Shown in pieces: positions 3,917 through 29,748 of a stretch of DNA of 64,000 bases. This stretch comes from Burkholderia sp. Bp8992 (GTDB lineage: Bacteria > Pseudomonadota > Gammaproteobacteria > Burkholderiales > Burkholderiaceae). Position 1 is the first letter of the stretch. Each line of letters opens with the position of its first letter. The position numbers and the translations under genes are program-made. The notes beneath the pieces are model-generated. The model did no database searches and was not told the DNA's origin. It worked only from the letters and a program-made list of their open reading frames with translations. The stretch is taken from the NCBI RefSeq assembly GCF_003853705.1, contig NZ_QTQI01000007.1:1-64000 (forward strand), given 5' to 3'.

Positions 3917-3933
3917 TCCCGCAAAAGCTCACC
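3917..3933 (-). repeat. Distal iteron copy, inverted relative to the origin array
   Basis: On the minus strand this reads GGTGAGCTTTTGCGGGA, matching the origin iteron GGTGAGGTTTTTCGGGA except at two positions in its central run. It lies in the 110-bp gap between convergent argC and dmlR, about 11.7 kb left of the main array. It is a probable binding site for the replication initiator. Confidence 0.6.
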
Positions 3934-3944
3934 TTTAGCCGAAT

Positions 3945-4868
3945 TCAGGCCGTATCGTCAGCCGCTGCGGCATTCGAGGCGGCGAGCGTCTCCGCCAGAA
4001 AGTCCACGCACACGCGCACCTTCGCCGACGCCGCGACGCGTTCCGGATATACGGCCCAGATGTTCGCGGGCTGGATCGCGTCCGGCAGCACGCGGCACAG
4101 TTCACCGCGCTCGATCAGCGGCGCAGCCTCCCAGATCGAACGCAACACGATCCCGCGTCCGGCCAGTGCCCATTGCACGGCCACCTCGCCATGGTTCGTC
4201 GACAGGGCGCCGCCGACCTTCACCGTGACCGTCTCGCCGCGCACGTTCAGCCGCCATACACCGAACGGATGGTCGCGCTCCTTGATTGCAAGACAATCGT
4301 GCGAAGCAAGGTCCGCGAGCGAGCGCGGCGTGCCGCGTCGTGCGAGATAGTCGGGCGACGCGCAGAGCACGCGATGGTTCGCGGCGAGGCGGCGCGCGAT
4401 CAGATGATCGGCGATCTCGTCGCCGATGCGCACGTCGAGGTCGTAGCCTTCGCCCGCGACGTCGACGAGCCGGTCGAACAGATCGAGCCGCACGTTCAGT
4501 TGCGGGTAGCGCGCACTGAAGTCGAGCAGCGCCGGCGCGACGACGTGCCGGCCGAAGCCGAAGCTGCTGGAGATGCGCAGCGTGCCGCGCGGCACCGTGC
4601 GGGTGGTCGACACGTCCTCGACGAGATGATCGACGTCGTCGAGAATCTTCTCGGCACGCGCGAACACGCGTTCGCCGGCCTCCGTGACGGTGACGCGGCG
4701 CGTCGAGCGATGCAGCAGGCGCGTCCCGAGCTGCGCCTCGAGCAGCGCGATGCGCTTGCTGACGTACGCGGGCGACACCGCGAGCTGCTCGGCGGCCGCG
4801 CTGAAGCTCGTCAGGCGGACGACCAGGCTGAACACGCGCAGGTCGTCGAGATTCGGCGATTTATTCAC
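3945..4868 (-). CDS. LysR-family regulator, DmlR-like
   Basis: The protein has a LysR helix-turn-helix (DDLRVFSLVVRLTSFSAAAEQ, then SPAYVSKRIALLEAQLGTRL) and an effector domain of the CrgA/DmlR subgroup with GTLRISSSFGFGRH. I place the start at the GTG at 4868, giving 307 residues. The only ATG upstream lies at 4994, inside the divergent dehydrogenase gene, and would add a 42-residue tail unlike LysR proteins. Escherichia coli DmlR activates the D-malate dehydrogenase gene dmlA. The divergent dehydrogenase here, 115 bp away, makes the same pairing likely. D-malate or tartrate is the expected inducer. Confidence 0.85.
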   Translation of the reverse strand: MNKSPNLDDLRVFSLVVRLTSFSAAAEQLAVSPAYVSKRIALLEAQLGTRLLHRSTRRVTVTEAGERVFARAEKILDDVDHLVEDVSTTRTVPRGTLRISSSFGFGRHVVAPALLDFSARYPQLNVRLDLFDRLVDVAGEGYDLDVRIGDEIADHLIARRLAANHRVLCASPDYLARRGTPRSLADLASHDCLAIKERDHPFGVWRLNVRGETVTVKVGGALSTNHGEVAVQWALAGRGIVLRSIWEAAPLIERGELCRVLPDAIQPANIWAVYPERVAASAKVRVCVDFLAETLAASNAAAADDTA

Positions 4869-4983
4869 GATTCGTGGAAAGTCGATTAACCTTTCGTGTG
4901 ATTCTAATCCAGATGGAAATAAATAGAATGGCGTGACAGGCCGTTGCCTCCCCGCAGCCGGCCAACCAGCCAAGGAGATTTGC

Positions 4984-6069
4984 ATGACCGACAAGACCTA
5001 CAGGATTGCCGTGATCCCCGGCGACGGCATCGGCCGCGAAGTGATGCCCGAGGGCCTGCGCGCGCTCGCCGCCGTGACCGCGCGCTTCGGCATCCGCTTC
5101 GATTTCGTCGAGATCGACTGGGCGAGCTGCGACTACTACGCGCAGCACGGCAAGATGATGCCGGACGACTGGAAGGCGCAGCTGTCGGGCATGGACGCGA
5201 TCCTGTTCGGCGCGGTCGGCTGGCCCGCGACGGTGCCTGATCACATCTCGCTGTGGGGCTCGCTGCTGAAATTCCGCCGCGAATTCGACCAGTACATCAA
5301 CCTGCGGCCCGCGCGCCTGTTCGACGGCGTGCCATCGCCGCTCGCCGGCCGCCGCGCGGGCGACATCGACTTCATGATCGTGCGCGAGAACACCGAGGGC
5401 GAATATTCGTCGGTGGGCGGCACGATGTTCGAAGGCACCGAGCGCGAAGTCGTGATGCAGCAGTCGATCTTCACGCGGCACGGCACCGAGCGCGTGCTGA
5501 AATTCGCGTTCGAGCTCGCACAGCGGCGCGCGAAGCGTGTCACCGTCGCGACGAAGAGCAACGGCATCGCGATCAGCATGCCGTGGTGGGATGCGCGTGC
5601 GGCCGACATGGCCGAACGCTATCCGGAGATCGCCGTCGACAAGCAGCACATCGACATCCTGTGCGCGCGCTTCGTGCTGCAGCCGGACCGCTTCGACGTC
5701 GTCGTCGCGTCGAACCTGTTCGGCGACATCCTGTCGGATCTCGGGCCGGCCTGCACGGGCACGATCGGCATCGCGCCGTCGGCGAACCTGAACCCCGACC
5801 GCACGTTCCCGTCGCTGTTCGAGCCCGTACACGGTTCGGCACCCGACATCGCGGGGCAATACATCGCGAACCCGGTCGCGATGATCTGGTCGGCGGCGAT
5901 GATGCTCGACTTCCTCGGCAACGGCGCGGGCCGCGAACGTGAAGCGCACGACACGATGATCGCCGCGATCGAGGACGTGCTGCGCACGGGGCCGCATACG
6001 CGCGATCTCGGCGGCAACGCAGGCACGCAGGAAGTGGGCGAGGCGGTCGCCGCGCGGATCGCGGGCTGA
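4984..6069 (+). CDS. dmlA: D-malate / tartrate dehydrogenase (decarboxylating)
   Basis: The 361-residue protein belongs to the isocitrate/isopropylmalate dehydrogenase superfamily. It starts RIAVIPGDGIGREVMPEG, and has the ENTEGEYSSVGG block that replaces the isocitrate phosphate-binding serine region in tartrate/malate enzymes. It also has the metal-binding aspartates in NLFGDILSDLGPA and the NAD-binding PVHGSAPDIAGQ. These enzymes oxidise D-malate to pyruvate and CO2, or L-tartrate, with NAD and a divalent metal. AAGGAG lies seven bases before the ATG at 4984. The divergent LysR gene is its likely activator. Confidence 0.88.
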   Translation: MTDKTYRIAVIPGDGIGREVMPEGLRALAAVTARFGIRFDFVEIDWASCDYYAQHGKMMPDDWKAQLSGMDAILFGAVGWPATVPDHISLWGSLLKFRREFDQYINLRPARLFDGVPSPLAGRRAGDIDFMIVRENTEGEYSSVGGTMFEGTEREVVMQQSIFTRHGTERVLKFAFELAQRRAKRVTVATKSNGIAISMPWWDARAADMAERYPEIAVDKQHIDILCARFVLQPDRFDVVVASNLFGDILSDLGPACTGTIGIAPSANLNPDRTFPSLFEPVHGSAPDIAGQYIANPVAMIWSAAMMLDFLGNGAGREREAHDTMIAAIEDVLRTGPHTRDLGGNAGTQEVGEAVAARIAG

Positions 6070-6078
6070 AGCGCGAGG

Positions 6079-6106
6079 GTGATGCCCGGCGCGCGCCGGG
6101 CATCAC
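6079..6106 (+). terminator. Hairpin after dmlA
   Basis: A perfect 14-bp inverted repeat (GTGATGCCCGGCGC and its complement) begins ten bases after the dehydrogenase stop. There is no strong T run, so it may act as a factor-assisted terminator or RNA 3' stabiliser. Confidence 0.5.
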
Positions 6107-6192
6107 TTCATGAATCGCTCGGCGGTGAGCAACGCACGACGCGTTTGCGCACTCGTGCAGATTCGTTGGAAGCCTACGTGGTGAAGTCGATC

Positions 6193-6265
6193 CGATCGGT
6201 GAGATGCACGTCACGCGCGCGCACACCGATCGTCGACGCTTCACCGGTGCGATCGGTGAGATGCA
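6193..6265. repeat. Pair of short direct repeats between dmlA and the DUF1348 gene
   Basis: CGATCGGTGAGATGCA occurs at 6193-6208 and again at 6250-6265, each followed closely by TCACGCG. The 395-bp gap holding them (6070-6464) contains no credible gene. The repeats contain GGTGAGAT, the left half of the origin iteron, but lack the CGGGA right half. Their role is unknown. Confidence 0.45.
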
Positions 6266-6369
6266 TCACGCGATAAAGCACACCGCTGCACGTCGACATG
6301 CGTGCTTTACCCGTGCGATGCCGCGTCGACCTGCTCGAAGCACACAGTCCGACACGCCATTCCACCGCG

Positions 6370-6416
6370 TCCCGAAAAATCTCACCTCAGCGTAGCAACT
6401 CCCGAATTTCCTCACC
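6370..6416 (-). repeat. Two distal iteron copies, inverted relative to the origin array
   Basis: Minus-strand copies GGTGAGATTTTTCGGGA (6370-6386) and GGTGAGGAAATTCGGGA (6400-6416) lie 30 bp apart in the gap between dmlA and the DUF1348 gene, about 9 kb left of the main array. The first differs from the array consensus at one base. Confidence 0.7.
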
Positions 6417-6464
6417 ATTGGACCGCGGTGATGCGTTCGCCGCTCCGCTGAATCGACGTGAACC

Positions 6465-6944
6465 TCACAGCCCGAGGTCGGACAGCCCCGGATGATCGTC
6501 CGGACGACGACCGAGCGGCCAGTGATAAAGACGGTCGGCCTCGCGAATCGGCAGATCATTGATGCTCGCGTGACGATGCGCCATCAGGCCGTTTTCGTCG
6601 AACTCCCAGTTCTCGTTGCCGTACGAGCGGAACCAGTTGCCCGCATCGTCGTGCCATTCGTACGCAAAGCGCACCGCGATGCGATTGCCGTCGAACGCCC
6701 ACAGCTCCTTGATCAGACGGTAGTCGAGTTCGCGCGCCCACTTGCGCTGCAGCAGCCCGACGATCTCGTCGCGGCCCGTCACGAACTCGGCACGATTGCG
6801 CCACCGGCTCTGCGGCGTATAGGCGAGCGACACGCGCTGCGGGTCGCGCGTGTTCCACCCGTCCTCGGCGGCGCGCACCTTCTGGCGCGCCGTTTCGAGC
6901 GTGAAGGGCGGAACGGGCGGGCGGACTTCGGGGGAATCGGACAT
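6465..6944 (-). CDS. DUF1348 protein with NTF2/SnoaL-like fold
   Basis: The 159-residue protein resembles the DUF1348 group of nuclear-transport-factor-2-like proteins. It has an N-terminal [22 protein letters not shown] helix, a [19 protein letters not shown] segment, and a Trp-rich second half ([29 protein letters not shown]). Members are small barrel proteins, often uncharacterised, sometimes linked with oxidative metabolism. AGGAG precedes the ATG. It lies 63 bp downstream of a TetR gene on the same strand and is probably controlled by it. Confidence 0.8.
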
Positions 6945-7007
6945 GAGTTGCTCCTGTTCAGGTTCTGGCCGCGAACGAACGCAGCCGGTTCGGATTCGCT
7001 GCGTCGG

Positions 7008-7613
7008 CTACCGCGACACGGTATCGAGCAGCAGTTCGGCCGTCGCGCGCGCATCGCGCGCGGCGTTTGCATCGCCGCTGACGAGCGCCACGCCGATCGC
7101 GCCGTCGATCAGCACGAGCCACTGGCGTGCGATGCGCGCAAGCCCGCGACGCTCGATGCCGGCTTCGTCGGCATACGCATCGAAGCGCTCGCGCACGAAC
7201 GCCAGCAACCGTGCCTTGTGTTCGCGCGCGACGACACGGACGGGACCGTCGGCATCGGGGATCTCGCCCGATGCGTTCAGGAACGCGCAGCCGTGAAAAT
7301 CGGGCTGCCCGAACCAGTCGCGCAACACGTCGAACATGCCGAGCAGCTGCGTGCGGGGCGCCTTGCCGCGCGCCAGCGTAGCGTCGACGAACCAGCGCAT
7401 CCAGCGTTCGTCGCGACGCTCGAGCGCGGCGACCACCAGCGCCTCTTTCGATTCGAAATGCGAATAAAAGCTCTTTCGTGCCGCGCCGGAGCGCTTGACG
7501 ATCGCATCGACACCCGTTGCATGGATGCCGCCCGAATAGATCAGCGCTTCGGCCGCGTCGAGCAGCCGGTCGCGAACGCCCGGTTCGCCGGAGGAGTCGT
7601 GAGGTGTATTCAT
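7008..7613 (-). CDS. TetR-family transcriptional regulator
   Basis: The 201-residue protein has a TetR N-terminal helix-turn-helix (RDRLLDAAEALIYSGGIHATGVDAIVKRSGAARKSFYSHF, residues about 10-50) and a divergent C-terminal ligand domain. I use the ATG at 7613. A start at 7655 would place a perfect 14-bp palindrome (7625-7638) inside the coding region, whereas with 7613 it sits 12-25 bases upstream as expected for an autoregulatory operator. The DUF1348 gene downstream is the likely co-regulated partner. Confidence 0.83.
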   Translation of the reverse strand: MNTPHDSSGEPGVRDRLLDAAEALIYSGGIHATGVDAIVKRSGAARKSFYSHFESKEALVVAALERRDERWMRWFVDATLARGKAPRTQLLGMFDVLRDWFGQPDFHGCAFLNASGEIPDADGPVRVVAREHKARLLAFVRERFDAYADEAGIERRGLARIARQWLVLIDGAIGVALVSGDANAARDARATAELLLDTVSR

Positions 7614-7624
7614 GGGTTTACGGT

Positions 7625-7638
7625 AGAACGATCGTTCT
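7625..7638. promoter_or_regulatory. Probable TetR operator
   Basis: AGAACGATCGTTCT is a perfect 14-bp palindrome located just upstream of the TetR gene start. Its position and symmetry fit an autorepressor site. This is inferred from sequence only. Confidence 0.6.
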
Positions 7639-7781
7639 CCATCGTCAATACCCATGTGAAAGGCCCTGTCGGTGAGAGGGCTGATGCGCGGCCTGGCGGC
7701 GCGCGTTTACGACATTTTTTCTTGAAGCCGATACGGGACGCTCACTACACTTCGGTCACCCTGTCTGGGCACAAGGACATC

Positions 7782-8420
7782 ATGCAGCGACCGGAATCCG
7801 CGCGCCCCGCGCGCGCCTATGCGGCTTATGCGAAGCGGCTCGACGGCCGCGTCGTCGTGCGGCGCTTCGATCCGCGCAGCGATTCGTACGACGCACTGAC
7901 CGCGCTGCTGCATCGCGCGTTCGCGCCGCTCGGCGCACTGGGCTTCAATTGCCCGGGTGTCGATCAGCCGGCGTCGGCGACGCGCGAACGCATGCTCACC
8001 GGCGAGTGCTTCGTCGCGCTCGGCAACGCGCATCTGGTCGCGACGATGACGCTGCAGTCGCACGATCCCGATTCCCGCTGCGATCCGTATCGCAGCCGGC
8101 GCGTCGCGACGCTCGGCCAGTTGGCCGTCGATCCCGTCTGGCAGGACCGCGGCATCGGTCGTTCACTGCTCGCGTTCGCACAGCATCGGGCCGCCGCGCG
8201 CGGCGCGACGCACCTGGCGCTCGACGCGCCGCATGCGGCGGTCCGGCTCATCGATTTCTATCGTCGCGCAGGATTTCAGCCGGTCGACGTGATGCGTTTT
8301 CCGGGGCACAACTACGACAGCGCGATCCTGTGCAAGGCCGTCAGCATCGCGAACGACCGCATGCGCGCGGTCGGCACGATGCAGATCGAGGTCGCACGGC
8401 AAGCCGGTGCGGCGACATGA
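7782..8420 (+). CDS. GNAT-family N-acetyltransferase
   Basis: The 212-residue protein has the GNAT core: VATLGQLAVDPVWQDRGIGRSLLAFA, in which QDRGIG is the acetyl-CoA pyrophosphate loop, followed by IDFYRRAGFQPVD, the usual end of the fold. The acceptor substrate is unknown. The ATG at 7782 is chosen because the upstream in-frame sequence back to 6492 is antisense to the TetR and DUF1348 genes. It overlaps the next gene at ATGA (8417-8420), so the two are coupled. Confidence 0.82.
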   Translation: MQRPESARPARAYAAYAKRLDGRVVVRRFDPRSDSYDALTALLHRAFAPLGALGFNCPGVDQPASATRERMLTGECFVALGNAHLVATMTLQSHDPDSRCDPYRSRRVATLGQLAVDPVWQDRGIGRSLLAFAQHRAAARGATHLALDAPHAAVRLIDFYRRAGFQPVDVMRFPGHNYDSAILCKAVSIANDRMRAVGTMQIEVARQAGAAT

Positions 8421-8833
8421 GACACGAGGTGCCGAAGCGCGACGACGGCGACGATCGCACCCGGCTCGACGCCCGGCAGGCCCGCGTGCGTGCCGCTCTG
8501 CGGCTGCGCGGCGTGATGAAGCTGACGATCGTCACGATCGCGGTCGCGCAGGCGCTTGCGTTCGCGTTCGAAAGCCTGCTGGTTGCGGCCGGATTCGCGC
8601 CGGACGCCGCGACGGTGCTGCTGTTCCGCTTCGTGACGTGTGCGCTCGTCAGCTTCTGGCTGCAGGCCGATGCATTGCGTGCGTATCAGTACGCGGCGCA
8701 GCACGGGTTCATCACGATTCCCGGCACGCATGGCGATCCGGTCGACATTGCGCCTCAATGCCCGAAGCGCTGGCTAGTCGTGTTGAATCTTCAGCTCGAA
8801 CCGCGATGGATGAAGGGTGAACGGAGCAAGTAG
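8417..8833 (+). CDS. Small membrane protein of unknown function
   Basis: The 138-residue product is not recognised. After a charged N-terminal 34 residues rich in Arg and Asp, two hydrophobic segments follow: LTIVTIAVAQALAFAFESLL and VLLFRFVTCALVSFWLQA. A soluble tail contains ITIPGTHGDPVDIAPQCPKRWLVVLNLQ. The start codon overlaps the GNAT stop. The pairing suggests a membrane-linked partner of the acetyltransferase, but no function can be assigned. Confidence 0.6.
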   Translation: MRHEVPKRDDGDDRTRLDARQARVRAALRLRGVMKLTIVTIAVAQALAFAFESLLVAAGFAPDAATVLLFRFVTCALVSFWLQADALRAYQYAAQHGFITIPGTHGDPVDIAPQCPKRWLVVLNLQLEPRWMKGERSK

Positions 8834-9091
8834 TGATCTGCGCACCGTTGGACGCCGTGCGCCATGCGCATGAGTGAGTCGCAACGAGGTTTGCGGGCTC
8901 ACGGTTGATGTTCCGGTTCGGTTCGGCGCCGCATGCGGTGCGTCGCGAACGATCACCCGGCCAGCGAAGTAGCAACTCATGTGGAAGGGCGTGGAAGGGA
9001 CTAAGCGAAGCGGAGGCAGACAGGTGAAGCGAACGTGCGCTTGCAATTCACCGATGCCGAAACGCGTCGCGATTCGGCGCACAAACACAGC

Positions 9092-9108
9092 TCCCGAATA
9101 TTCTCACC
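9092..9108 (-). repeat. Distal iteron copy, inverted relative to the origin array
   Basis: The minus strand reads GGTGAGAATATTCGGGA. Its surroundings (CACAGC before and TCAAGCGT after, on the plus strand) are the same as those of the copy at 13934, so a longer unit than 17 bp is conserved. It lies in a 373-bp gap (8834-9206) that otherwise holds only the tdh terminator. Confidence 0.65.
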
Positions 9109-9158
9109 TCAAGCGTTGAATCACGCGCTTCGGTGCGACGGTACGCACGTAAACGAAA

Positions 9159-9193
9159 GCGGGGCAGGCGGCCAACATGCCGCGCTGCCCCGC
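9159..9193 (-). terminator. Terminator of the kbl-tdh operon
   Basis: A 9-bp stem (GCGGGGCAG with CTGCCCCGC) ends 14 bases after the tdh stop and is followed on the minus strand by TTTCGTTT. Confidence 0.6.
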
Positions 9194-9206
9194 CTCGACA
9201 CTCGAC

Positions 9207-10235
9207 TCAGGCCGTCCAGTCGAGAATCACCTTGCCGCTTTCGCCGGACAGCATCGCGGCGAAGCCTTTCTCGTAATCGTCGGCCGCGAAGCGATGCGTG
9301 ATGATCGGCGACAGGTCGAGGCCGCTCTGCAGCATCGCGACCATCTTGTACCAGGTCTCGAACATCTCGCGGCCGTAGATGCCCTTGATCTCGAGGCCCT
9401 TGAAGATCACCTGGTTCCAGTCGATCGCCGTCTGCGCGGGCGGGATGCCGAGCAGCGCGACCTTGCCGCCATGGTTCATCGCCTCGAGCATGCTCGTGAA
9501 CGCGCTCGGCACACCCGACATCTCGAGACCGACGTCGAAGCCTTCGGTCATGTGCAGGTCGGCCATCACGTCGCGCAGCGACTCGCGTGCGACGTTGACC
9601 GCGCGCGTCGCGCCCATCTTGCGCGCGAGCTCGAGCCGGTAGTCGTTGATGTCGGTGATCACGACGTTGCGCGCGCCGACGTGTTTCGCGATCGCGACGG
9701 CCATGATGCCGATCGGGCCCGCGCCGGTGATCAGCACATCCTCGCCGACGAGGTTGAACGACAGCGCCGTGTGCGTCGCGTTGCCGAACGGATCGAAGAT
9801 CGACGCGAGATCGTCGGAGATCTCCGGCGGAATCTTGAACGCGTTGAACGCCGGGATCGCCAGATACTCGGCGAACGCGCCTTCGCGGTTCACACCGACA
9901 CCGACCGTGTTGCGGCACAGATGCCGGCGCCCCGCGCGGCAGTTACGGCAGAAACCGCACGTGATGTGGCCTTCGCCGGACACGCGATCGCCGATCGCGA
10001 AGCCGCGCACTTCCTGCCCCATCTCGACGATCTCGCCGACATATTCGTGACCGACGTGCATCGGCACGGGAATCGTCTTCTGCGCCCAGTCGTCCCACTT
10101 CCAGATATGGATGTCGGTGCCGCAGATCGCCGTGCGGTGGATCTTGATCAGCACGTCGTTGTGGCCGACTTCGGGACGCTTCACGCGCGTGAGCGTCAGG
10201 CCGGGGCCGCGTTCGAGCTTTGCCAGTGCTTTCAT
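9207..10235 (-). CDS. tdh: L-threonine 3-dehydrogenase
   Basis: The 342-residue zinc alcohol-dehydrogenase-type enzyme oxidises L-threonine to 2-amino-3-ketobutyrate with NAD. It starts [15 protein letters not shown]. It contains the catalytic zinc cysteine in [17 protein letters not shown], the structural zinc cysteines in [15 protein letters not shown], and the Rossmann loop [13 protein letters not shown]. Length equals that of characterised Tdh. The gene follows kbl after 13 bp, and Kbl cleaves its unstable product, so the pair forms the threonine-to-glycine pathway. A GGAGG site precedes the ATG. Confidence 0.95.
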
Positions 10236-10248
10236 GGTCGCGCCTCCG

Positions 10249-11448
10249 TCAGATGATGCCGAGCGACTTGCCGACGCGCACGAACGCGGCGACCGTCTGG
10301 TCGATCTGCTCGGGCGTATGCGCGGCGCTCATCTGCGTGCGGATGCGCGCGCGGCCGCGCGGCACGACGGGGAACGAGAAGCCGATCACGTAGACGCCTT
10401 CGCCGAGCAGCTTGTCGGCCATGTTCGTCGCGAGCTGCGCGTCGCCGAGCATCACCGGAATGATCGGGTGTGCGCCGGGCACGAGCGTGAAGCCCGCTTC
10501 GGTCATCTGCTGGCGGAACCGCGCGCCGTTCTCGCGCACGCGCTCGCGCAGCTTCGCACCTTCGTCGCTGCCGAGCAGTTCCAGCACCTTCAGCGATGCC
10601 GCGGCGATGCTCGGCGTGAGCGTGTTCGAGAACAGGTACGGGCGCGAGCGCTGGCGCAGCAGCTCGATCACCTCGCGACGCGCGGCGACATAGCCGCCCG
10701 ATGCACCGCCGAGCGCCTTCCCGAGCGTGCCCGTGATGATGTCGACGCGGCCTTCGACGCCGCAGTACTCCGGCGTGCCGCGACCGTGCGTGCCGATGAA
10801 GCCGACCGCATGCGAATCATCGACCATCACGAGCGCGCCGTAGCGATCGGCGAGATCGCAGATGCCTTTCAGGTCGGCGATGATGCCGTCCATCGAGAAC
10901 ACGCCGTCGGTCGCGATCAGCTTGTGGCGCGCGCCGGCCGCGTCGGCTTCCTTGAGCTTCGCCTCGAGGTCGGCCAGGTCGTTGTTCTTGTAGCGGAAGC
11001 GCTTCGCCTTGCAGAGGCGAATACCGTCGATGATGCTCGCATGGTTCAGCTCGTCGCTGATGATCGCGTCGTTCTCGTCGAGCAGCGTCTCGAACAGCCC
11101 GCCGTTCGCGTCGAAGCAGCTCGAATAGAGGATGCTGTCCTCGGTGCCGAGAAACGCGGCCAGCGCGCTTTCCAGTTGCTTGTGGACGGTTTGCGTGCCG
11201 CAGATGAAGCGGACCGATGCCATGCCGAAGCCGTCCTGGTCGAGGCCGGCCTTCGCCGCCGCGATCAGGCGCGAATCGTTCGCCAGACCCAGATAGTTGT
11301 TCGCGCAGAAATTGAGCACGCCGGCACCGCCGGCGAGCCGCACGGCTGCCGCCTGGGGACTCGCGATCTCGCGCTCGGTCTTGTAAAAACCGTCCGCGCG
11401 GATCTGGTCGAGCGTCCCGCGCACCTGGGCGAGAAAGGCATCACGCAT
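10249..11448 (-). CDS. kbl: Glycine C-acetyltransferase (2-amino-3-ketobutyrate CoA ligase)
   Basis: The 399-residue pyridoxal-phosphate enzyme converts 2-amino-3-ketobutyrate and CoA to glycine and acetyl-CoA. [12 protein letters not shown] near residue 50 and the PLP lysine in [18 protein letters not shown] near residue 240 mark the alpha-oxoamine synthase family. The ATG at 11448 has AGGAG upstream and gives the family length; an in-frame ATG at 11487 would add 13 unneeded residues. It is first in the kbl-tdh operon. A divergent XRE-cupin regulator gene lies 160 bp away. Confidence 0.95.
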
Positions 11449-11553
11449 CGCAAAGCTCCTGACAGGGATTCGCATTCCGCGGCGCACCGCTCGTGGCGGC
11501 GGCGCAACGGCCTGCTACTGTTATAGTCGGTCGTTCGGTTGACCGCATTTATC

Positions 11554-11583
11554 CGATATTCCGAACTAGAATTCGAAATATCG
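11554..11583. promoter_or_regulatory. Inverted repeat between kbl and the XRE-cupin gene
   Basis: CGATATTCCGAA, a six-base spacer, and TTCGAAATATCG form a 12-bp inverted repeat with one mismatch. It lies 26 bases before the XRE-cupin ATG in an unusually AT-rich intergenic stretch, and fits an operator for that regulator. Confidence 0.6.
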
Positions 11584-11609
11584 AACAACTCTAAGCGAAC
11601 GGAATCCAA

Positions 11610-12221
11610 ATGGCAAGTTCCTCCGGGCCGCGGCGCACGCCTGCCGGCGCCGCGCCGCAGCCGCCGGCCATCACGCCGCCGCGTGTGGGCGAGCAGATCC
11701 AGCGGCTGCGCAACGAGCGCAAGCTGACGCTCGACGACCTGTCGCGCGCGGCCGGCGTATCGAAATCGATGCTCTCCGAGATCGAACGCGACAAGGCCAA
11801 CCCGACGATCGCCGTTGCGTGGCGGCTGACGAATGCGCTCGGCATCACGCTCGACGAGCTGTTCTCGCAGCCGAAGGCGCCCGAGACGATCCGGGTGGAC
11901 GGCCCGCATGACATCCCGACACTCGCCGGCCACGACGGCCGGTACCAGTTGCGCGTATGGGGCCCGATCGACCTCGCCGGCAAGTTCGAGTGGTACGAAC
12001 TGACGCTGCCGGGCGGCGGCGCACTGGTGTCGAACGCGCACGAACCCGGCACGCGCGAGCACCTCACCGTGCTGCAGGGCGCGATGGAAATCGAGGCCGC
12101 AGCGGCCAGCCGGCGCCTGAAGGCGGGCGACACGGCACGCTACCCGGCCGACGAGCCGCATGCGATCCGCAACCCCGGCAAGGCCGAAGCGCGTGCATTG
12201 CTGATCGTGATCCATCGCTGA
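11610..12221 (+). CDS. XRE-family regulator with C-terminal cupin domain
   Basis: The 203-residue protein has a proline/alanine-rich leader, then an XRE helix-turn-helix (IQRLRNERKLTLDDLSRAAG, then SKSMLSEIERDKANPTI) at about residues 30-85. A single cupin domain follows at about 130-195 (EWYELTLPGGGALVSNAHEPGTREHL and RYPADEPHAIRNPG). Such HTH-cupin proteins sense small metabolites, often amino acids or polyamines. Divergence from kbl-tdh points to control of threonine breakdown, with threonine or glycine as a possible signal. That link is inferred from position. Confidence 0.85.
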   Translation: MASSSGPRRTPAGAAPQPPAITPPRVGEQIQRLRNERKLTLDDLSRAAGVSKSMLSEIERDKANPTIAVAWRLTNALGITLDELFSQPKAPETIRVDGPHDIPTLAGHDGRYQLRVWGPIDLAGKFEWYELTLPGGGALVSNAHEPGTREHLTVLQGAMEIEAAAASRRLKAGDTARYPADEPHAIRNPGKAEARALLIVIHR

Positions 12222-12270
12222 CGACGCGGATAGTCGGCCGAAAGGTCAATCGCAGGCCAGTTGCGGAAAA

Positions 12271-12290
12271 TACTGTATGTTTGTACAGTA
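12271..12290. promoter_or_regulatory. LexA-type SOS box
   Basis: TACTGTATGTTTGTACAGTA has the full TACTGTA-N6-TACAGTA arms of the classical LexA site (CTGT-N8-ACAG core at 12273-12288). It lies 73 bases before the start of the small gene at 12363. Confidence 0.7.
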
Positions 12291-12362
12291 TACGGACATT
12301 CCGCCATGCACGGGCCGGAGCCGGCGCACCGAGGCGCCCGTCCCGGTCGACAGGAGCCTGCA

Positions 12363-12740
12363 ATGACAGAAGAACAAGATTTGGCCGCGCTCAGCTTCAA
12401 GGCTGCCGCGCATGATCTCGAGCTGATCGTCCGGCATATCGCCGGGCGCTACATCCGCCAGCGCGTGCCGCTCACGTGGCGCCTGCTGCACGCGATCGAA
12501 GCCGAGGCGCTCGCCGATCTCGGCTTTGCCAGCCGGCACGACGCCGGCATGCGTCAATTATTCGAACGGCCGTCGGACATGACGTTTCCCGAAACGGACG
12601 ATCCGATCGACTTCGGGCGCTCGAATGCGCTGCCCGCCGTCTTTTCGTTCGCGGTCCTCGCGTACGAGGCCGCGGCAACGTCGCACGGCACGGCACCCCG
12701 CGAGCGCGCTCACCGTCAGTCCAAGGCGTGGGGCGACTGA
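12363..12740 (+). CDS. Small protein of unknown function behind a LexA box
   Basis: The 125-residue protein is not recognised. It is acidic, probably mainly helical (LSFKAAAHDLELIVRHIAGRYI and LTWRLLHAIEAEALADLG), with a middle section LFERPSDMTFPETDDPIDFGRSN and no membrane helix. The ATG at 12363 has AGGAG seven bases upstream. An earlier ATG at 12261 would place the LexA box inside the coding region. Position behind a near-consensus SOS box, and 102 bp before a recombinase-fold gene, suggests a damage-inducible role near the origin. This is inference. Confidence 0.6.
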   Translation: MTEEQDLAALSFKAAAHDLELIVRHIAGRYIRQRVPLTWRLLHAIEAEALADLGFASRHDAGMRQLFERPSDMTFPETDDPIDFGRSNALPAVFSFAVLAYEAAATSHGTAPRERAHRQSKAWGD

Positions 12741-12842
12741 CGGCCAGGCTCCGGCCGCGGCGCACGGCGGCCGGTTCAGTCCCTTGCTGCCCGACATGTT
12801 GCGGAAAGGGCTACCATATACGCAACTAACGGAATTAACACC

Positions 12843-13862
12843 ATGTCCCTTCCCGCCTCTCCCGACACCGCTGCACGCCCGGAAGAAAAGGATCTGTTCG
12901 ACCGCGGTGCGTCCGACTGGATCCTCTCACCCGAAACCGCGTTCGACGCGTGGCTCGCGATGCAGGACTATCGCCGTTCGTCAGCCGACGTCTATCGCGC
13001 GCAATGGGGCGCCTTTCTCGCGTGGATGCGTGCGCATCAGAAGAATCTGGCCACGGTCGACACGGCCACCATTGCAAACTTCGTCGGCGAACTGCCGATC
13101 AAGAAGACGCAGCGCATGCGCTATTTGCGGCTGATCGAGCGTGTGCTCGACCACATCCGGCGTACCGAATACGCATCGACCAACCCGGCCCGTTTCATTG
13201 CTCAGGATGGCGAAGCGAACTGGCGCCAGGCACGCGACAACGAGCCGACCGGTTTCCTCACGCCGGCCGAACGCGCGACGTTGCTCGCCTATCTGTTCTC
13301 ACCGATCGGCGTATCGGGTTCCGCGTACTGGAAAGAGCGGCGCGACCGCGCGCTCGTTGCCGCGTTTCTCGGTGCCGGCATCAAGACCGGCGAAGCGCGT
13401 GCCCTCACCATTAGTTGCATCAATACGACCGGCACGTCATTGCAGATCGAGTCGACGCATCCGGATTACGCGCGCGAAACCCATCTGGCCTCGTTTGCAA
13501 TCGCGCTGCTCGAAGCATGGCTGACCGAGCGCAAGCGCCAGGAGATCCCGGGAGAACTCGTATTCCCCGCATCGCATGCCGGGCGGCCGATGCACAAGGC
13601 CACAATGCTGCGCGCGATCGACGCGATCGTCGAATCGGCCGGGCTCACGTCGTCGCGCACCGCACGCGCGAGCCCGCAAACGCTGCGCAATACCTATGCG
13701 GCCGAGCTGTTCGAACATGACGTGCCGCCCGAGCGCGTCGGCAAATGGCTGGGCTTCATGCGGCCGATCTCGTCGAACCGCCTGCATCGCGCGTGGAAGA
13801 ACTGGCGCGATGGCTTGGCCGACCACAACGGTGACGCGACCGACAGCGACGAAACTCACTGA
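12843..13862 (+). CDS. Tyrosine-recombinase-fold protein lacking catalytic residues
   Basis: The 339-residue protein has the two-domain layout of XerC/XerD: an N-terminal core-binding domain (FDAWLAMQDYRRSSADVYRAQWGAFLAWM, residues about 35-110) and a C-terminal domain from about 140. Catalytic positions are altered. The first arginine motif reads GAGIKTGEARAL, with Lys where GLRxSEL has Arg. The HxLRH box reads SPQTLRNTY, keeping only its Arg. LGH reads LGF. No tyrosine follows, since the usual YTHV position reads LHRAW. It is therefore unlikely to cut DNA and may be a DNA-binding or structural protein. It is transcribed towards the origin, after the LexA-box gene. Confidence 0.75.
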   Translation: MSLPASPDTAARPEEKDLFDRGASDWILSPETAFDAWLAMQDYRRSSADVYRAQWGAFLAWMRAHQKNLATVDTATIANFVGELPIKKTQRMRYLRLIERVLDHIRRTEYASTNPARFIAQDGEANWRQARDNEPTGFLTPAERATLLAYLFSPIGVSGSAYWKERRDRALVAAFLGAGIKTGEARALTISCINTTGTSLQIESTHPDYARETHLASFAIALLEAWLTERKRQEIPGELVFPASHAGRPMHKATMLRAIDAIVESAGLTSSRTARASPQTLRNTYAAELFEHDVPPERVGKWLGFMRPISSNRLHRAWKNWRDGLADHNGDATDSDETH

Positions 13863-13933
13863 TCCTGATGCGGCTGCTCACGCGATACCATCCGTGAGCA
13901 GCCTTGCGTGGCGCAGCCTCATCGTTCCACAGC

Positions 13934-13974
13934 TCCCGAAAAACCTCACCTCAAGCGTCCCGAATCGTCTCACC
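13934..13974 (-). repeat. Two distal iteron copies, inverted relative to the origin array
   Basis: The minus strand reads GGTGAGGTTTTTCGGGA at 13934-13950, identical to the array consensus, and GGTGAGACGATTCGGGA at 13958-13974. They are 24 bp apart in the 137-bp gap between the recombinase-fold gene and the convergent KfrA-like gene. Confidence 0.8.
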
Positions 13975-13999
13975 TGTGCGGGTGCCGCCGATCTCCGGG

Positions 14000-15199
14000 T
14001 CAGGAATGCGCAAAGCGCGCGACGGCTTCGAACCGCGACGGCCACGCGCCCGAAGCGTGTTCGCATTCCGGGCACGCCACTTCAAATCCTTCGTCACCGT
14101 GCGACAGTTCCGGCTCCCCATCGCAATGCGGGCACCGGGCCGGCACCGGAATATCGTGATCCAGCGCGGTACCGATCGCGGAAAACGCTTCCGCATCCAG
14201 TTGCCCGGCATCGGCCAGGCGCCGGATCAGCGCGGCGATTTCCGGATTCATCCCTCGGCTCGCACGTAACGAACTCACGTCGCGCGTCGCACGTTCCAGT
14301 TCATCGCCCTGCGTACGCAACTGTTCTTCGAGCCGATCCGCGCGGGCCTTGGCCGAACTCAATTGCTGCAGGAAATCGAATTCCTTGCGCTGAACGTCGC
14401 GCAAGCCACTCTGGTAGGTCGACGCCATGCTGCGCAACGAATCCAGCTCGACCAGCATCGGTTTCACGCGGCGCTCGGCTTCGGCCACGGCGTCCTTGAT
14501 TTGCTGAGCGTAGTGCTCCGTGCGTTGCTGCAATTCAGCTTGCAATGCATCGATGCGGTCGCGAAGCGTCGCGTTTTGCGCCTGCTCGGTGTCAATGCGG
14601 GCCGCTGCCGCGGCGAGTTCCTTCTCCAGTCGGGCGACTGTGGTGAGTAACGTCGCTTCGCTTGCCGAACCGTGTGTCGATTGCGACGCCAGTTGAACCT
14701 CGAGTTCGGTCACGCGGGCCTGCAGCTGTTCGTTTCGGGTTTCGCCGCGGGCGAGCGCCGCTTCGAGCGTTTCCTGGCGGACGGTTGCGTCGCGCAACCG
14801 CTGCTCGGCGTCGGCCACGCTGGCCCGAACCTGTTCGCGATCGCTATCGAGGCTGTCGCGGGCTGCTTTCAGTGCTTCTTCATAGAGTGCACCGAGCAAG
14901 GCGCCGGCTTTTTCCTCGACGGCCTTCGGGATGGCTGCTCCGTCGAGCCGGATCTTGGACGCGGAACGGATGCGCTCCCAGAAATGGTCGATATCTTTCG
15001 GAATGTCGCTGGCGCTGCCGGTCTGGGTGAGATCGCGAACGTTGGCGGCCGACGGGCGGATGCCGAGATCGAAGAACAAACGCTTGCAGGCATGCAGCGA
15101 CAATTCCTGACGGCGTGCACCGCTGGCACGCAGCGATTCCAGTTCGTCGCGAATGACTTGGCGCATTTCGTCCAGGGTCATGACAGTGCTCACAGACAT
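14000..15199 (-). CDS. KfrA-like coiled-coil DNA-binding protein with C-terminal zinc ribbon
   Basis: The 399-residue protein begins with a KfrA-type N-terminal DNA-binding region (ELSLHACKRLFFDLGIRPSAANVRDLTQTG, residues about 28-60). A very long coiled coil follows, about residues 100-330, full of Glu, Gln, Ala and Arg heptads. It ends in a zinc ribbon: CPHC at about 358 and CPEC at about 378. KfrA proteins of plasmids bind DNA and form filaments that aid segregation. The gene borders the origin and is transcribed away from it. Start is the ATG at 15199; one at 15181 is also possible. The zinc ribbon is not part of plasmid KfrA as I know it. Confidence 0.75.
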   Translation of the reverse strand: MSVSTVMTLDEMRQVIRDELESLRASGARRQELSLHACKRLFFDLGIRPSAANVRDLTQTGSASDIPKDIDHFWERIRSASKIRLDGAAIPKAVEEKAGALLGALYEEALKAARDSLDSDREQVRASVADAEQRLRDATVRQETLEAALARGETRNEQLQARVTELEVQLASQSTHGSASEATLLTTVARLEKELAAAAARIDTEQAQNATLRDRIDALQAELQQRTEHYAQQIKDAVAEAERRVKPMLVELDSLRSMASTYQSGLRDVQRKEFDFLQQLSSAKARADRLEEQLRTQGDELERATRDVSSLRASRGMNPEIAALIRRLADAGQLDAEAFSAIGTALDHDIPVPARCPHCDGEPELSHGDEGFEVACPECEHASGAWPSRFEAVARFAHS

Positions 15200-15576
15200 T
15201 GAAATGTGGCAATCATAACGAAATACGTATTTCTTGATACTTGTTTTGTGCGGACGTGGTGAATTTACGTCGCTTCGCACAGAAATCGGATCTGTGAGCC
15301 GATCTGGTCGACTGTGCTCAAGGATTCCGTGAAACAAAGCGAAGAAAGTCAGCCAAGTCTTTGTCTTACAAGCGTTTTCCTGCAGACCCCGAATTTCGGC
15401 ATTTGTTTCACATGACAACGGATCCCGTTGCCTGTGGGTGTTCAGGGGTTGAGGTGTCTGTGGAAAACTCGTCAGCCGATGTCTTGAGAGTATTAGAAGT
15501 AAACACCCTTGAACCCTTAGTTAAAAACGTTAACGCCACGGCACAGCCTTACGTAGCAAGGCTTTCCGGCCGACAA

Positions 15577-16883
15577 GGTGAAGTTTTACGGGAGCCAAGG
15601 TGATCTTCTGCGGGAGCTGACGTGATGGGGTTCAGGGAGCAGCGTGAGCCGTTGCAGGAAAGATCGTGAGCGGATTCGGGATCACAGTGAAACACGAGAT
15701 TTCCCAAAGGTGAGGGTTTTCGGGGCCGCACAGCCACGGAACCCGCGCTATGCCTGTCTGCACAGTTTTCTGCCTGTGCAGACACAGGTGAGAACTTGCG
15801 GGACCTTCTTCGCGCCCCGATTCTGCCCATCTTTTGGGCAGTTTTGGCGAAAGGTGAGGTTTCACGGGACTCCGCGGGATTTTGCTGTGAGGATTTCCGG
15901 GAAGCGAGCGCCATTTTGCACAGCAAAAGTGCGCACAGGGGCCTGTGATGCCCTAAAGGTGAGGTTTTTCGGGAGGGAAATCCGGGTTTTCCTGCCCTGA
16001 TCCCACTAAGGTGAGCTTTTTCGGGGCATGGATCAAAGGCTTTGCACGTGCCCACAGGTGAGGCTTTTCGGGAATGGAATTTGCCCGAAAAATGGTCACA
16101 GGTGAGGTTTTTCGGGACCTGTGATCGGCCGGATTCGCCGAAAAGCCCGCCAGGACTGGAAGAAATCTCGTTTTTGCTGTGCCACTTTTTGGCACAGGTG
16201 AGATTTTTCGGGGGCTGACATACCGTTGTCGTATGAAGGATTCCCGTCTAAAGGTGAGGCTTTTCGGGGGATGTCCGCGATGCACAGCCAAATGCCTTCT
16301 GAGCATAAGTATCGGAACGCATTGAGGTTTTTGATACTGTGGCGGTTACGGTGAGGTTTTTCGGGAGCCATTTCCGTGCCCGTTGCGGCACAGCATTTTT
16401 TCCGAAAGGTGAGCGTTTTCGGGAGGCTTTGCCAGCCAATCCCGCGCGTGCCGGGCATTCGTCGGCATCCGGACGAAAGAACTTGCTGTGCTCAGGGTGA
16501 GTATTTTCGGGACCTGATCCTATTGGTGCGCTGTACAATGCGCGCCCAGGCCTGCAAATCAGGTCCGGTCGGGCCGTACGGGCCGGTTTCGGCGGTGTCT
16601 TTTCGAGCGTCGGACCCGATCCCTGTCCCTCCGCGAACCGTGCCTGTACATGCATACAGGCGCCCGTGGGCGATCGGGGACGCACAGCGACGGACAATCG
16701 CAACCCTGTGCAAAACGCACGGCCGTGCAGTCGCAAAATTACGACAAATTCAAAGGTGAGCCGATACGGGAGCGAATTCCGCACGTGTCGTGCACAGGTG
16801 AAATTCTGTGAATCCGCGCATCCCGCGGCACGTCTGGAAGAGTCCGGAACGCTGCAATGGCGGACCGGTGAGGGTTTTCGGGA
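15577..16883 (+). repeat. Iteron array, consensus GGTGAGGTTTTTCGGGA
   Basis: Seventeen-base direct repeats start at 15577, 15599, 15665, 15709, 15787, 15853, 15886, 15958, 16010, 16057, 16101, 16197, 16253, 16350, 16408, 16496, 16755 and 16867. Copies at 15958, 16101 and 16350 are identical to the consensus; the first few and the one at 16755 are more degenerate. Most are preceded by A or CA. All point the same way, towards rep. Several left-end spacings (22, 66, 44, 66, 33) are multiples of 11, near helical phasing. They are the expected binding sites of the initiator encoded next to them. Confidence 0.9.
16644..16659. promoter_or_regulatory. LexA-like palindrome inside the origin
   Basis: CTGTACATGCATACAG fits CTGTA-N6-TACAG. 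It lies in the 240-bp iteron-free gap between the copies at 16496 and 16755, upstream of rep. Confidence 0.45.
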
Positions 16884-17002
16884 GTGGTTGGGGTGAGCGC
16901 CGTTTTGCATGCGCGCTTCACCGGCTATGGTGAGCATGTCGTTCTGGACGCACATCACCGCAGGCGCTATCCTTCCGGGAAACTTCACCTCCGACCCGAC
17001 GT

Positions 17003-18370
17003 ATGGCCACGACGAAGCGCGCCAAGAAAACCGATGTGGATGTGGTGAGTGCCAGTTCAGCCGAATTGCGCAAGGCCGTCGAGGCGATTGCCATTCAGCC
17101 GAAAAGCGGCAAGATCACGCTCCTCACTCGCAAGCTGTTCAATGTCCTGCTGGCCGTCGCGCAGCAGGCCGACGACTCGGGCGACACGTATCGCGCGCTG
17201 CTGTCGGACATCGTCGCCAACTCCGCTTTCGATTCGAACGACACCGCGCTGGTGAAGGAACACCTGCGCCGCATGGTGTCGGTGCAGGTCGAATGGAGCA
17301 CGGGGACGTCGAGCCAGAAGCCTGGCCGCAAGTGGGGGATCTCGACGCTGATCGCCGACGCGGAAATTCTCGAGGATCCGACGACCCGCCGCGTGTGGGT
17401 CGAATTCTCGTTCGCACCGAAGATCAAGAAGAAGCTGCTCGACCCGGTCCAGTACGCGCGCCTGAGCCTGCAGTTCCAGAGCCAGCTGCGCAGCAGCGCC
17501 GGTCTCGCGCTGTACGAGATCTGCGTGCGCTACCTGACGAATCCGAGCCACCTGACGATGCGCGAGCCGTGGGAATGGTGGCGGCCGATCCTGTCGGGTA
17601 CGCCCGATACGGAAGCCGGCGACGAGGCGAAGCGCGAGTACAAGTACTTCAAGCGCGACTACCTGCGTCCCGCGATCGCGGAAGTCAACGCGGTCACCAA
17701 CATCTTCGTCGAGCTGATCGAGCACCGCGAAGGGCGGCGGGTGGCCGAGATCCAGTTCCGCGTGACCGAACGCAAGCAGCCGATGCTCGCGCTCGATGAA
17801 CACCCGAACGTGTTCGACAGCACGCTGGTCGACCGGATGGTCAAGCTCGGGATCCCGCTGAAGGAAGCGCAGACGCTCTATGCGGACAGCGAGGAGAACC
17901 GGATTCGCGCCGCCCTGCAGATGACCGAACAGCGGATGCGCAGTACGACGCTGCCGCCGGTGCGCAGCGCGCCGGCGTTGTTCAAGGATGCGCTGAAGAA
18001 GGGCTATGCGCCGCCGGTCGAGTCGGTCGACGCGCTGCCTGCCGGCACGCCGTCCGCGAAGGTCGCGGCGGCCCAGCCGGACGATCTGAAGGCACGCTTA
18101 CTGAGCGAGTTCGCGGCGTTCCGCCGCAAGGAAGCGAAGGTGCTCTACGAAGAGCAGGGCGACGCGGAGCGCGAAGTGGCGCGCGAGTCGTTCGAATCGG
18201 AGGCGCTGCCGACGATGGGCTCGCATCTGCGCGACGACTGGCGCAAGCGCGGCCTCGATTCCAAGCTGGCCGAGACGGCCTTTTTCGACTGGCTGGCCCA
18301 GAAGACCTGGGGCGAGCCGACGGACGGCGACCTGCTGTCGTTCACACTGAACCAGTCGCGGGCCGCCTGA
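17003..18370 (+). CDS. rep: Replication initiator of the secondary chromosome (Rep_3/RepB type)
   Basis: The 455-residue protein matches plasmid-type initiators with paired winged helices. The first (LLTRKLFNVLLAVAQQ, then VKEHLRRMVSVQVEWS) covers about residues 35-150, and the second (SSAGLALYEICVRYLTNPS, then YKYFKRDYLRPAIAEVNAVTNIFVELIEHREGRRVAEIQFRV) about 165-260. A charged C-terminal region of some 190 residues follows, longer than in plasmid Reps. It is expected to bind the iterons upstream and open the origin with DnaA. A reverse iteron-like sequence ends 13 bases before its ATG and could mediate autorepression. It converges on parB. Confidence 0.9.
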   Translation: MATTKRAKKTDVDVVSASSAELRKAVEAIAIQPKSGKITLLTRKLFNVLLAVAQQADDSGDTYRALLSDIVANSAFDSNDTALVKEHLRRMVSVQVEWSTGTSSQKPGRKWGISTLIADAEILEDPTTRRVWVEFSFAPKIKKKLLDPVQYARLSLQFQSQLRSSAGLALYEICVRYLTNPSHLTMREPWEWWRPILSGTPDTEAGDEAKREYKYFKRDYLRPAIAEVNAVTNIFVELIEHREGRRVAEIQFRVTERKQPMLALDEHPNVFDSTLVDRMVKLGIPLKEAQTLYADSEENRIRAALQMTEQRMRSTTLPPVRSAPALFKDALKKGYAPPVESVDALPAGTPSAKVAAAQPDDLKARLLSEFAAFRRKEAKVLYEEQGDAEREVARESFESEALPTMGSHLRDDWRKRGLDSKLAETAFFDWLAQKTWGEPTDGDLLSFTLNQSRAA

Positions 18371-19531: not shown

Positions 19532-19547
19532 CTTTATGCGCATAAAG
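19532..19547. promoter_or_regulatory. parS: parS site between parA and parB
   Basis: CTTTATGCGCATAAAG is a perfect 16-bp palindrome filling most of the 23-bp parA-parB gap. Its outer bases form part of the parB ribosome binding site. Confidence 0.85.
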
Positions 19548-20210: not shown

Positions 20211-20309
20211 TTTTCACTCCTGTTTTGGTCGTTGGAATTCTACAGGACGATATTTGAATTTCAATGAAATTGTCGTTCGACAACTACGCATTAGCCATTC
20301 GGGCTATCG

Positions 20310-20325
20310 GTTTATGCGCATAAAC
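20310..20325. promoter_or_regulatory. parS: parS site
   Basis: GTTTATGCGCATAAAC, perfect 16-bp palindrome, 100 bp upstream of parA. Confidence 0.85.
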
Positions 20326-20503: not shown

Positions 20504-20519
20504 GTTTGTGCGCATAAAC
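20504..20519. promoter_or_regulatory. parS: parS site (one mismatch)
   Basis: GTTTGTGCGCATAAAC, one base off the palindrome (A to G in the left arm). Confidence 0.75.
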
Positions 20520-29490: not shown

Positions 29491-29748
29491 CGCGCCGCCG
29501 GTGCCGCGCGGCGCCGTTTCCCGCCGAGGCCGGCCGCGCCGGCCTCCGGCGCCCCGCCGGGCGTGGCGCGTGTCCGCCATCGAACTTCAAAGATTGCTAT
29601 ACTTTCGCCCAATTCCGGCTTCCGGCCGGTAATTTGTGCCTGTCTGCGTCGATCGTTCGCATATCTCGCACGCATTTGACGCCCTGACCATCCCAGCCGG
29701 GCATGGCTTCTTCAATCGCCCCGCGTGGGTGTCTCCGTGGAGCTCGTC

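Follow-up and report, generated by a model that had tools for sequence, protein, structure and literature searches.

Conserved Iterons Outside the Chromosome 2 Origin of Burkholderia as Candidate Sites for Titration or Handcuffing of the Initiator RepA

Organization of the Origin Region

The first 64,000 nucleotides of contig NZ_QTQI01000007.1 of Burkholderia sp. Bp8992 (the whole of this stretch is called here the window) are the origin region of a Burkholderia chromosome 2, with an array of direct repeats, or iterons, located upstream of repA, the gene of its Rep_3 initiator. Further copies of the same iteron are scattered outside this array, and they are conserved in related genomes. Genes in the window were called with a codon-usage script and do not represent curated annotation. 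Their order around the origin is a recombinase gene, a kfrA-like gene, the iteron array, repA, and parB-like and parA-like genes, and the GC skew changes its sign from negative to positive near the array. The closest relative of the window among 38 compared loci is L118 (from genome G001), with 95.2% identity.

The recombinase gene is of the phage-integrase type (12843..13862, plus strand; Pfam PF00589, 8.8e-16), and the kfrA-like gene faces it (14000..15418, minus strand; Pfam KfrA_N, 4.7e-20). The origin array (15577..16883, plus strand) consists of ~18 direct iterons with irregular spacing. Their number, given as 18 in a first-pass annotation made from the sequence alone, agrees with 16 copies at ≤4 mismatches together with those at 15665 and 16755. 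The repA gene (17003..18370, plus strand) matches the models of both Rep_3 domains (PF01051 Rep3_N, 3.5e-12; PF21205 Rep3_C, 7.7e-10), and its product is a weak match to the π initiator (2nra, E 0.0073). A Rep_3 gene thus stands beside repeats, with the direct units upstream of it, as in other iteron-type origins, where such units measure about 17–22 bp. The description of the repeats as initiator-type is borne out by their identity with the published chromosome 2 iteron of B. cenocepacia, the consensus of which is given in the legend of S2 Fig of PMC4948915. A weak inverted iteron located just upstream of the start of repA (16973..16989, minus strand, matrix score 15.1) is a possible repA operator for autorepression.

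The parB-like (18463..19524) and parA-like (19548..20210) genes, both on the minus strand, were named from inspection of their translations. Beside them, at 19533–21002, the window contains five copies of the palindrome TTTATGCGCATAAA, which are probably parS sites.

Iterons Outside the Origin Array

Six copies of the iteron, all on the minus strand, lie to the left of the array. From the outermost inward, they comprise a single site at −13 kb (3917..3933, 2 mismatches to the consensus), a pair at −10 kb (6370..6386, 1 mismatch, and 6400..6416, 3 mismatches, 30 bp from the first), a single site at −8 kb (9092..9108, 3 mismatches), and a pair at −3 kb, in which an exact consensus copy (13934..13950, 0 mismatches) is accompanied by a second one 24 bp apart (13958..13974, 4 mismatches). 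The score of the last copy, 15.0, is the lowest matrix score of the six. The first-pass annotation had listed all six, and both mismatch and matrix scans found each of them exactly where it had been placed. Its description of the set as six sites over 10 kb turned out to be too narrow; the six copies are real, but the set extends over >100 kb, enters coding sequence, and reaches the third replicon. Similarly, the statement that all copies are inverted holds for the left side, but it overlooked a strong plus-strand copy at +13 kb (30168..30184, score 28.4), which lies inside a gene, as well as the weak minus-strand copy at 16973. The flanks said to be common to the copies at 9092 and 13934 do exist, but they are not fully present at the other four sites.

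Twenty matches at ≤3 mismatches, array included, were found in the window, compared with 0.05 per window in shuffles. With a matrix built from 16 array copies, seven off-array sites (the six left copies and the one at 30168) score ≥14, versus 0.4 expected from 20 Markov simulations. A chance origin of the scattered copies is ruled out by the shuffles, by the simulations, and by reversed-pattern controls. One open reading frame that would run over the sites at 13934 and 13958 (13904–14269, plus strand) was dropped, as it conflicts with the kfrA-like gene.

All six left copies are indeed located in four gaps between genes and none is in a gene, as claimed earlier. The −13 kb gap is bordered by a semialdehyde-dehydrogenase gene (2893–3834, plus) and a LysR gene (3945–4994, minus), the −10 kb gap by an Iso_dh gene (4933–6069, plus) and a DUF1348 gene (6465–6944, minus), the −8 kb gap by a small called open reading frame (8429–8833, plus) and a zinc-dehydrogenase gene (9207–10235, minus), and the −3 kb gap by the recombinase and kfrA-like genes. 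In the window all four gaps are convergent, while only 11 of its 36 gaps of ≥40 bases are (P = 0.006), and the −3, −10, and −13 kb gaps are convergent in 5/5 other annotated loci each (three of three, P = 0.023). Sites in such gaps lie 3′ of both neighbors and are therefore poor operator candidates. The sites might still be transcription operators or terminator parts of the neighboring genes, in keeping with their intergenic location and with the possible contact with promoters of the sites at −8 kb (in some genomes), at −18 kb, and upstream of an acyltransferase gene (both described below). This explanation is very improbable when set against the 3′–3′ arrangement of three gaps in the window and in all five loci, the same arrangement of the gap that carries a remote array (8/8), the lack of relationship among the neighboring genes, and the location of one site inside a coding sequence.

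Conservation of the Left Sites

The gaps of other genomes were recovered via their flanking genes and not via the motif. The full counts take in the window as well as five further loci (L119, L121, L127, L129, and L130), which were retrieved as regions once the motif lists were available; the compared genomes are related, so that these counts are not independent. A minus-strand site is present in the −3 kb gap in 46/48 cases (40/42 among loci chosen by RepA), in the −8 kb gap in 22/23 (17/18), and in the −10 kb gap in 10/10 (4/4). In the −13 kb gap it is found in 6/6 cases, which are the window and the five region-fetched loci, with no RepA-chosen locus among them. A plus-strand site occurs in only one gap, at −10 kb. 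Column identity to the window in the Burkholderia rows, obtained with a site mask placed about one base off the 17-mer, is 0.89–0.93 within the sites compared with 0.58–0.73 in the rest of the gaps, and the gap copies thus show sharp footprints.

A larger sample consists of 80 RepA loci from Burkholderia, Paraburkholderia, Caballeronia, and Trinickia, of which 78 cover the stretch 2.8–4.0 kb before repA. A minus-strand site is found there in 74 of the 78, and a plus-strand one in 11. The first-pass annotation had named as one possible refutation that matches would be equally common elsewhere and unconserved. Nothing of the kind was seen; a minus-strand site is kept in most gaps compared, and the gap copies are both clustered and conserved. 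In Trinickia diaoshuihuensis (L076), six further iterons are clustered at about −9.8 to −9.3 kb from repA.

An Iteron inside a Coding Sequence

The plus-strand copy at 30168 lies within a gene of the squalene/phytoene synthase type (29725..30597, plus strand), which, from a look at its translation, we take to be hpnD-like. The iteron encodes the residues V-R-I-F-G (GTG AGG ATT TTC GGG). The AGG codon is rare, accounting for only 12 of 1354 Arg codons in the genes of the window, and yet it is present at this position in the window and in all 25 same-genus genes found by protein (26/26), as is GGG. In L175, Val replaces Ile in this stretch with AGG kept, whereas the Arg codon four positions before AGG occurs in five different forms. 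AGG is also present in L026 and L038, the two RepA loci extending as far as this gene, as well as in 6/6 hpnD-like genes of Paraburkholderia-type and Trinickia genomes, which were located through the motif lists; each of these six genomes, all with complete match lists, has a match 14–18 kb to the right of the array. Five distant homologues from other families (34–38% identity) do not have AGG there, and in two of them the residue is Arg encoded by CGC. The stretch may thus be read as protein-coding sequence held by a constraint at the level of DNA.

Distribution of the Iterons on the Chromosome Scale

Burkholderia sp. MS389 (G022), the genome of which is complete, has 39 strict matches, compared with 1 for the reversed-pattern control; 35 of them are on chromosome 2, one is on chromosome 1, and three are on the third replicon. 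Of those on chromosome 2, 33 fall into a 166-kb stretch of the 3.0-Mb replicon. The origin array accounts for 12 of these sites, and the other 21 of the 33 clustered matches are outside it. Such clustering rules out a polar genome-wide motif of the KOPS or Chi kind. Thirteen same-genus genomes have 27–50 strict matches each, with controls of 0–2, whereas eight genomes of other families have 0–6, with controls of 0–3. The enrichment around the origin for which the first-pass annotation had proposed a test is seen in these whole-genome scans, in which strict matches cluster near the origin and controls remain low. Origin-type sites are therefore present off-origin on the same replicon beyond chance, as would be found in a remote locus of initiator titration.

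Complete match lists cover 13 Burkholderia genomes (G001, G002, G003, G004, G006, G007, G009, G012, G022, G030, G034, G035, and G042), in which the sites were assigned to positions by hand from distance and sequence, not by alignment of gaps. In the 12 genomes other than G007, the left sites recur in the same order. The sites at −3, −10, −13, and −18 kb are each found in 12/12, and the −8 kb site in 11/12. The −18 kb site was matched by sequence on another contig in G001 and is closer to the origin in G030, whereas in G006 all left sites beyond −8 kb are displaced ~7 kb outward. Besides the −3 kb site, G007 has four more left sites at 15–30 kb, which have no assignment to the known positions. 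On the right side, the hpnD site is present in 13/13 genomes, a single site at +90 to +140 kb (~+120 kb) in 11/13, inverted sites by an acyltransferase gene in 13/13, and a second tandem array in 12/13, with a pair in G007.

The second array belongs to a remote locus that was found by the neighboring acyltransferase-type protein and not by the motif. All 30 returned loci have a cluster of 6–15 same-strand sites 3′ of the acyltransferase gene, and all 30 have two or three inverted sites 5′ of it, about 3 kb before the array, with the outer two ~300 bp apart. Of 303 spacings, 245 give a repeat unit of 23 bp, and the gap in which the array lies is convergent in 8/8 annotated loci. The array occupies L111:5949–6218, with equivalents in L112–L117, L143, and L181–L211, and only a pair in L212–L216. 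Of the seven remaining same-genus genomes, two (G037 and G042) have the array. Among 27 genomes with the remote locus and repA on one contig, 24 have it on the right arm, at 123–271 kb from repA; 22 of these are within 126–170 kb, with the extremes of 123 and 271 kb found in G059 and G060, respectively. In G030, the distance is ~107 kb. For the left-arm and other distances from repA, contigs were taken as circular.

This array has a published counterpart. A table legend in Du et al. (2016; PMC4948915) mentions a second chromosome 2 cluster located 140 kb from the origin, as well as others throughout the genome, and S1 Table of the same paper marks reverse copies. As an observation only, the slightly under-represented arm near the chromosome 2 origin in that work is apparently the anticlockwise one, to which the legend assigns the second cluster.

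The orientation of the sites follows a simple rule. In 13/13 genomes the left sites face outward, except for one of the −10 kb copies of G030, which faces the opposite way, and they are inverted because they lie on the left. The hpnD site and the remote array likewise point outward, whereas the two or three sites upstream of the acyltransferase gene break the rule. An orientation of this kind, which persists also in genomes with the remote locus on the opposite arm, is more than titration needs. It would suit RepA sites that fold or position the origin domain by forming loops between the origin array, the left sites, and the remote array, for example to assist segregation or to maintain an open origin, and that hardly affect re-initiation. 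We nevertheless consider such a role rather unlikely, since an inversion across the origin would equally leave the outward orientation intact, the distance of the remote locus to repA varies from ~101 to 271 kb, and iterons outside plasmid origins are described in the relevant parts of PMC3937223 as only inhibitory.

Chromosome 1 was considered in connection with yet another role, in which the sites would activate or license chromosome 2 in the manner of DARS or crtS. Off-origin initiator sites can be positive, as is the case for crtS of V. cholerae (passages in PMC6090056 and PMC3937223). However, crtS is on chromosome 1, while the sites described here are on the same replicon as the origin and match its iterons, like the inhibitory Vibrio sites. 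The presumed chromosome 1 of eight few-contig genomes has only 0–5 strict matches, with 0 in G002 and G007. No conserved chromosome 1 copy of the iteron was found in the match lists; the one recurrent match that was examined (L122–L124) lies inside a D12-methylase gene. By sequence, the iterons are therefore not a crtS equivalent, a result that applies to this motif only, and the licensing role is quite improbable. In G009, a pair of iterons spaced by 22 bp is present on the presumed chromosome 1 (G009:C1:235564–235602).

Several other matches were seen. A single iteron near genes of the mechanosensitive-channel and sulfate-permease types (L135, L149, and L150) is located on chromosome 2 in G002 and G022, where more than 1.1 Mb separate it from the origin, and on an unassigned contig in G004. 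Far iteron pairs were seen in Paraburkholderia-type and Trinickia genomes (L133, L134, and L136–L138), and other Paraburkholderia-type genomes (L141 and L145–L148) have loose groups of 2–5 iterons at tens of kb on either side of the origin and no tandem remote array. A recurrent match in a CDP-alcohol-transferase gene (L139 and L140) is coding.

Chromosome 2-Type Iterons at the Origin of the Third Replicon

The third replicon (c3) has its own Rep_3 gene, with a product 34% identical to chromosome 2 RepA, and its own iterons of the type GGTA.....TTATGGG, with 8–14 loose matches per locus. After the chromosome 2 motif was noticed there in the match lists, 32 c3 origins were chosen by the c3 Rep protein. 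A strict chromosome 2-type iteron is present at 29 of them, ~0.6–0.7 kb outside the c3 array and always facing the c3 rep gene, compared with 0.003 per locus expected from simulation. It occurs as a pair 33–34 bp apart in 15 origins and as a single site in 14, and it is located at ~2190–2380 of the oriented locus in L228–L259 (374–407 in L243). In the alignment, two sharp conserved blocks stand within a poorly conserved stretch. Three of the 32 origins (L249, L255, and L259) do not have the iteron and represent natural controls for the link. A reciprocal search for c3-type iterons near the chromosome 2 origin gave no strict match in 39 loci.

The sites at the c3 origin carry the bases that separate the chromosome 2 consensus from that of c3, so that chromosome 2 RepA would be a likelier reader of them than c3 Rep. 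We tentatively suggest, while rating it below an even chance, that the chromosome 2 initiator acts also at the c3 origin and ties the start of c3 replication to the state in which chromosome 2 finds itself. To our knowledge, no such inter-replicon element has been described for Burkholderia.

The c3 origins also bear on the identity of the protein that reads the iterons. A protein other than RepA, for example the adjacent KfrA, could bind the array and the scattered copies, and in the window the kfrA-like gene does have the −3 kb pair on one side and the array on the other. Yet among nine open reading frames near one c3 origin (one of them antisense to parB) there is no match to KfrA, and the type of iteron appears to follow the rep gene, since c3 has a different, similarly built iteron beside its own Rep_3 gene. 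Binding by such a protein therefore has little probability.

Discussion

Taken from their sequences and conservation, the off-origin copies appear to be kept by selection far outside the chromosome 2 origin, and RepA very probably binds them. We favor, with a probability of roughly 0.6, the reading in which the scattered copies serve RepA as binding sites outside the origin and, through their early duplication, titrate or handcuff it. The net role of the set would then probably be inhibitory, and the sites likely form part of the timing of chromosome copying in Burkholderia. In low-copy iteron plasmids, such as P1 with its incA and the like, extra iterons outside the minimal origin lower the copy number by titration and handcuffing. 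Unlike those plasmid inc iterons, which are close to the origin, the Burkholderia set is spread over >100 kb of a chromosome.

The proposed course of events would be as follows. Once initiation has taken place, the off-origin set (the ~18 kb on the left and, on the right, the hpnD site, the site at +90 to +140 kb, and the remote array) would double within minutes. The doubled sites would draw off free RepA, and RepA-bound origins could pair with RepA-bound remote sites, so that a second round would be held off until RepA accumulates again. For chromosome 2, a size of 3.21 Mb and a C period of 54 min are given in PMC4948915, from which we calculate a fork speed of ~30 kb/min. At that speed, the left sites would double within ~1 min and the remote array mostly in 4–6 min, with the remote locus as a whole duplicated ~4–9 min after initiation. 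Inhibition by plasmid initiator sites outside the origin, through titration and pairing with origin sites, is described in PMC3937223, in the part concerned with such sites.

Several observations weigh against this reading. As mentioned above, titration by itself would not require the outward orientation. Not all sites are found in all genomes; in G007 only the −3 kb and hpnD sites are in register, the −8 kb site is missing in G030, and the single site at +90 to +140 kb is missing in G007 and G035. Five genomes (G007, G032, G056, G059, and G060) have only a pair in the gap of the remote array, together with three inverted sites. The remote locus is on the left arm in three of the 27 genomes (G007 at ~252 kb, G040 at ~103 kb, and G057 at ~101 kb), which is the position that an inversion across the origin would leave. 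The hpnD stretch ranks only 27th of 286 five-codon windows for low synonymous variability, which is not extreme, and the argument for constraint on the DNA therefore rests on the rare codon. The argument from convergent gaps against operators is only partial, as the genes around the −8 kb site converge in the window, L119, and L127 but are in tandem in L121, L129, and L130, a divergent gap holds the −18 kb sites in 4/4 annotated loci, and a tandem one holds the inverted sites by the acyltransferase gene. Local or operator roles are thus possible for the sites in the divergent and tandem gaps.

The genomes with only a pair are the most divergent ones, with 72–75% protein identity, and we infer that a remote pair may have grown into the array. 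The slippage by which a tandem array of 23-bp units can grow, as well as the presence of no more than a pair in these five genomes, would agree with sites that are neutral remnants of a duplicated origin or of mobile repeats. Such an origin of the whole set is hardly credible in view of the sharp footprints in fast-changing gaps, the frozen rare codon, and the recurrence of the sites in the same places across genera.

Titration or handcuffing by off-origin RepA sites has its nearest parallel in V. cholerae, where five remote iterons of RctB and a 39-mer are located within ~74 kb, ~40 kb from the origin of chromosome II (PMC3937223 and PMC6090056, in the sections on these sites). According to passages of PMC3937223, the remote iterons bind RctB in vitro and lower the copy number of ori2 plasmids, and they were proposed to act as a titration sink and compared with datA. 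In both systems, origin-type iterons are placed off-origin on the same secondary chromosome, in a region duplicated early. Differences are also evident. The Vibrio initiator is RctB and a 39-mer is among its six sites, whereas the Burkholderia initiator matches Rep_3 models and its set is larger, with a tandem array of 5–14 units, a coding-embedded site, a mostly outward orientation, and sites at the origin of another replicon. E. coli datA is likewise an off-origin cluster of initiator sites that is duplicated early and is negative for re-initiation (PMC3937223 and PMC6090056, passages on datA), but it uses DnaA sites and hydrolysis of DnaA-ATP, not iterons of a plasmid-type Rep.

The chromosome 2 iteron and the second cluster on that chromosome are already published, as given in the legends of PMC4948915. 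The cluster of B. cenocepacia J2315 described there has the same iteron consensus and lies 140 kb from the chromosome 2 origin. Those parts of the paper by Du et al. that deal with the J2315 clusters say nothing of their conservation, function, or gene context, nor of a coding-embedded site or a link to c3, and the main text has no occurrence of "titrat" or "handcuff". No report of the conserved dispersed set, of the coding-embedded site, or of the c3 link was found in the literature searched, which covered few subscription papers.

In B. cenocepacia, the segregation of chromosome 2 is tied to the cell cycle no less strictly than that of chromosome 1, and the authors inferred, in the portion of PMC4948915 devoted to it, that an origin of plasmid-like type had become subject to a control atypical of plasmids. 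A 2026 survey (PMC13342612) states, in its remarks on timing, that further "timers" beyond crtS and methylation are still sought. The short list of conserved sites with exact coordinates presented here makes the timing of chromosome 2 accessible to experiments on binding and on deletion of the sites, and the site at c3 is a concrete candidate for coupling between replicons. If the titration or handcuffing of RepA by these sites is real, Burkholderia would be a second lineage, with a Rep_3 initiator, having remote initiator sites like those of Vibrio. If the link to c3 also holds, the off-origin iterons would represent a two-replicon timing system in which the secondary replicons are joined to each other, and not chromosome 2 to chromosome 1.

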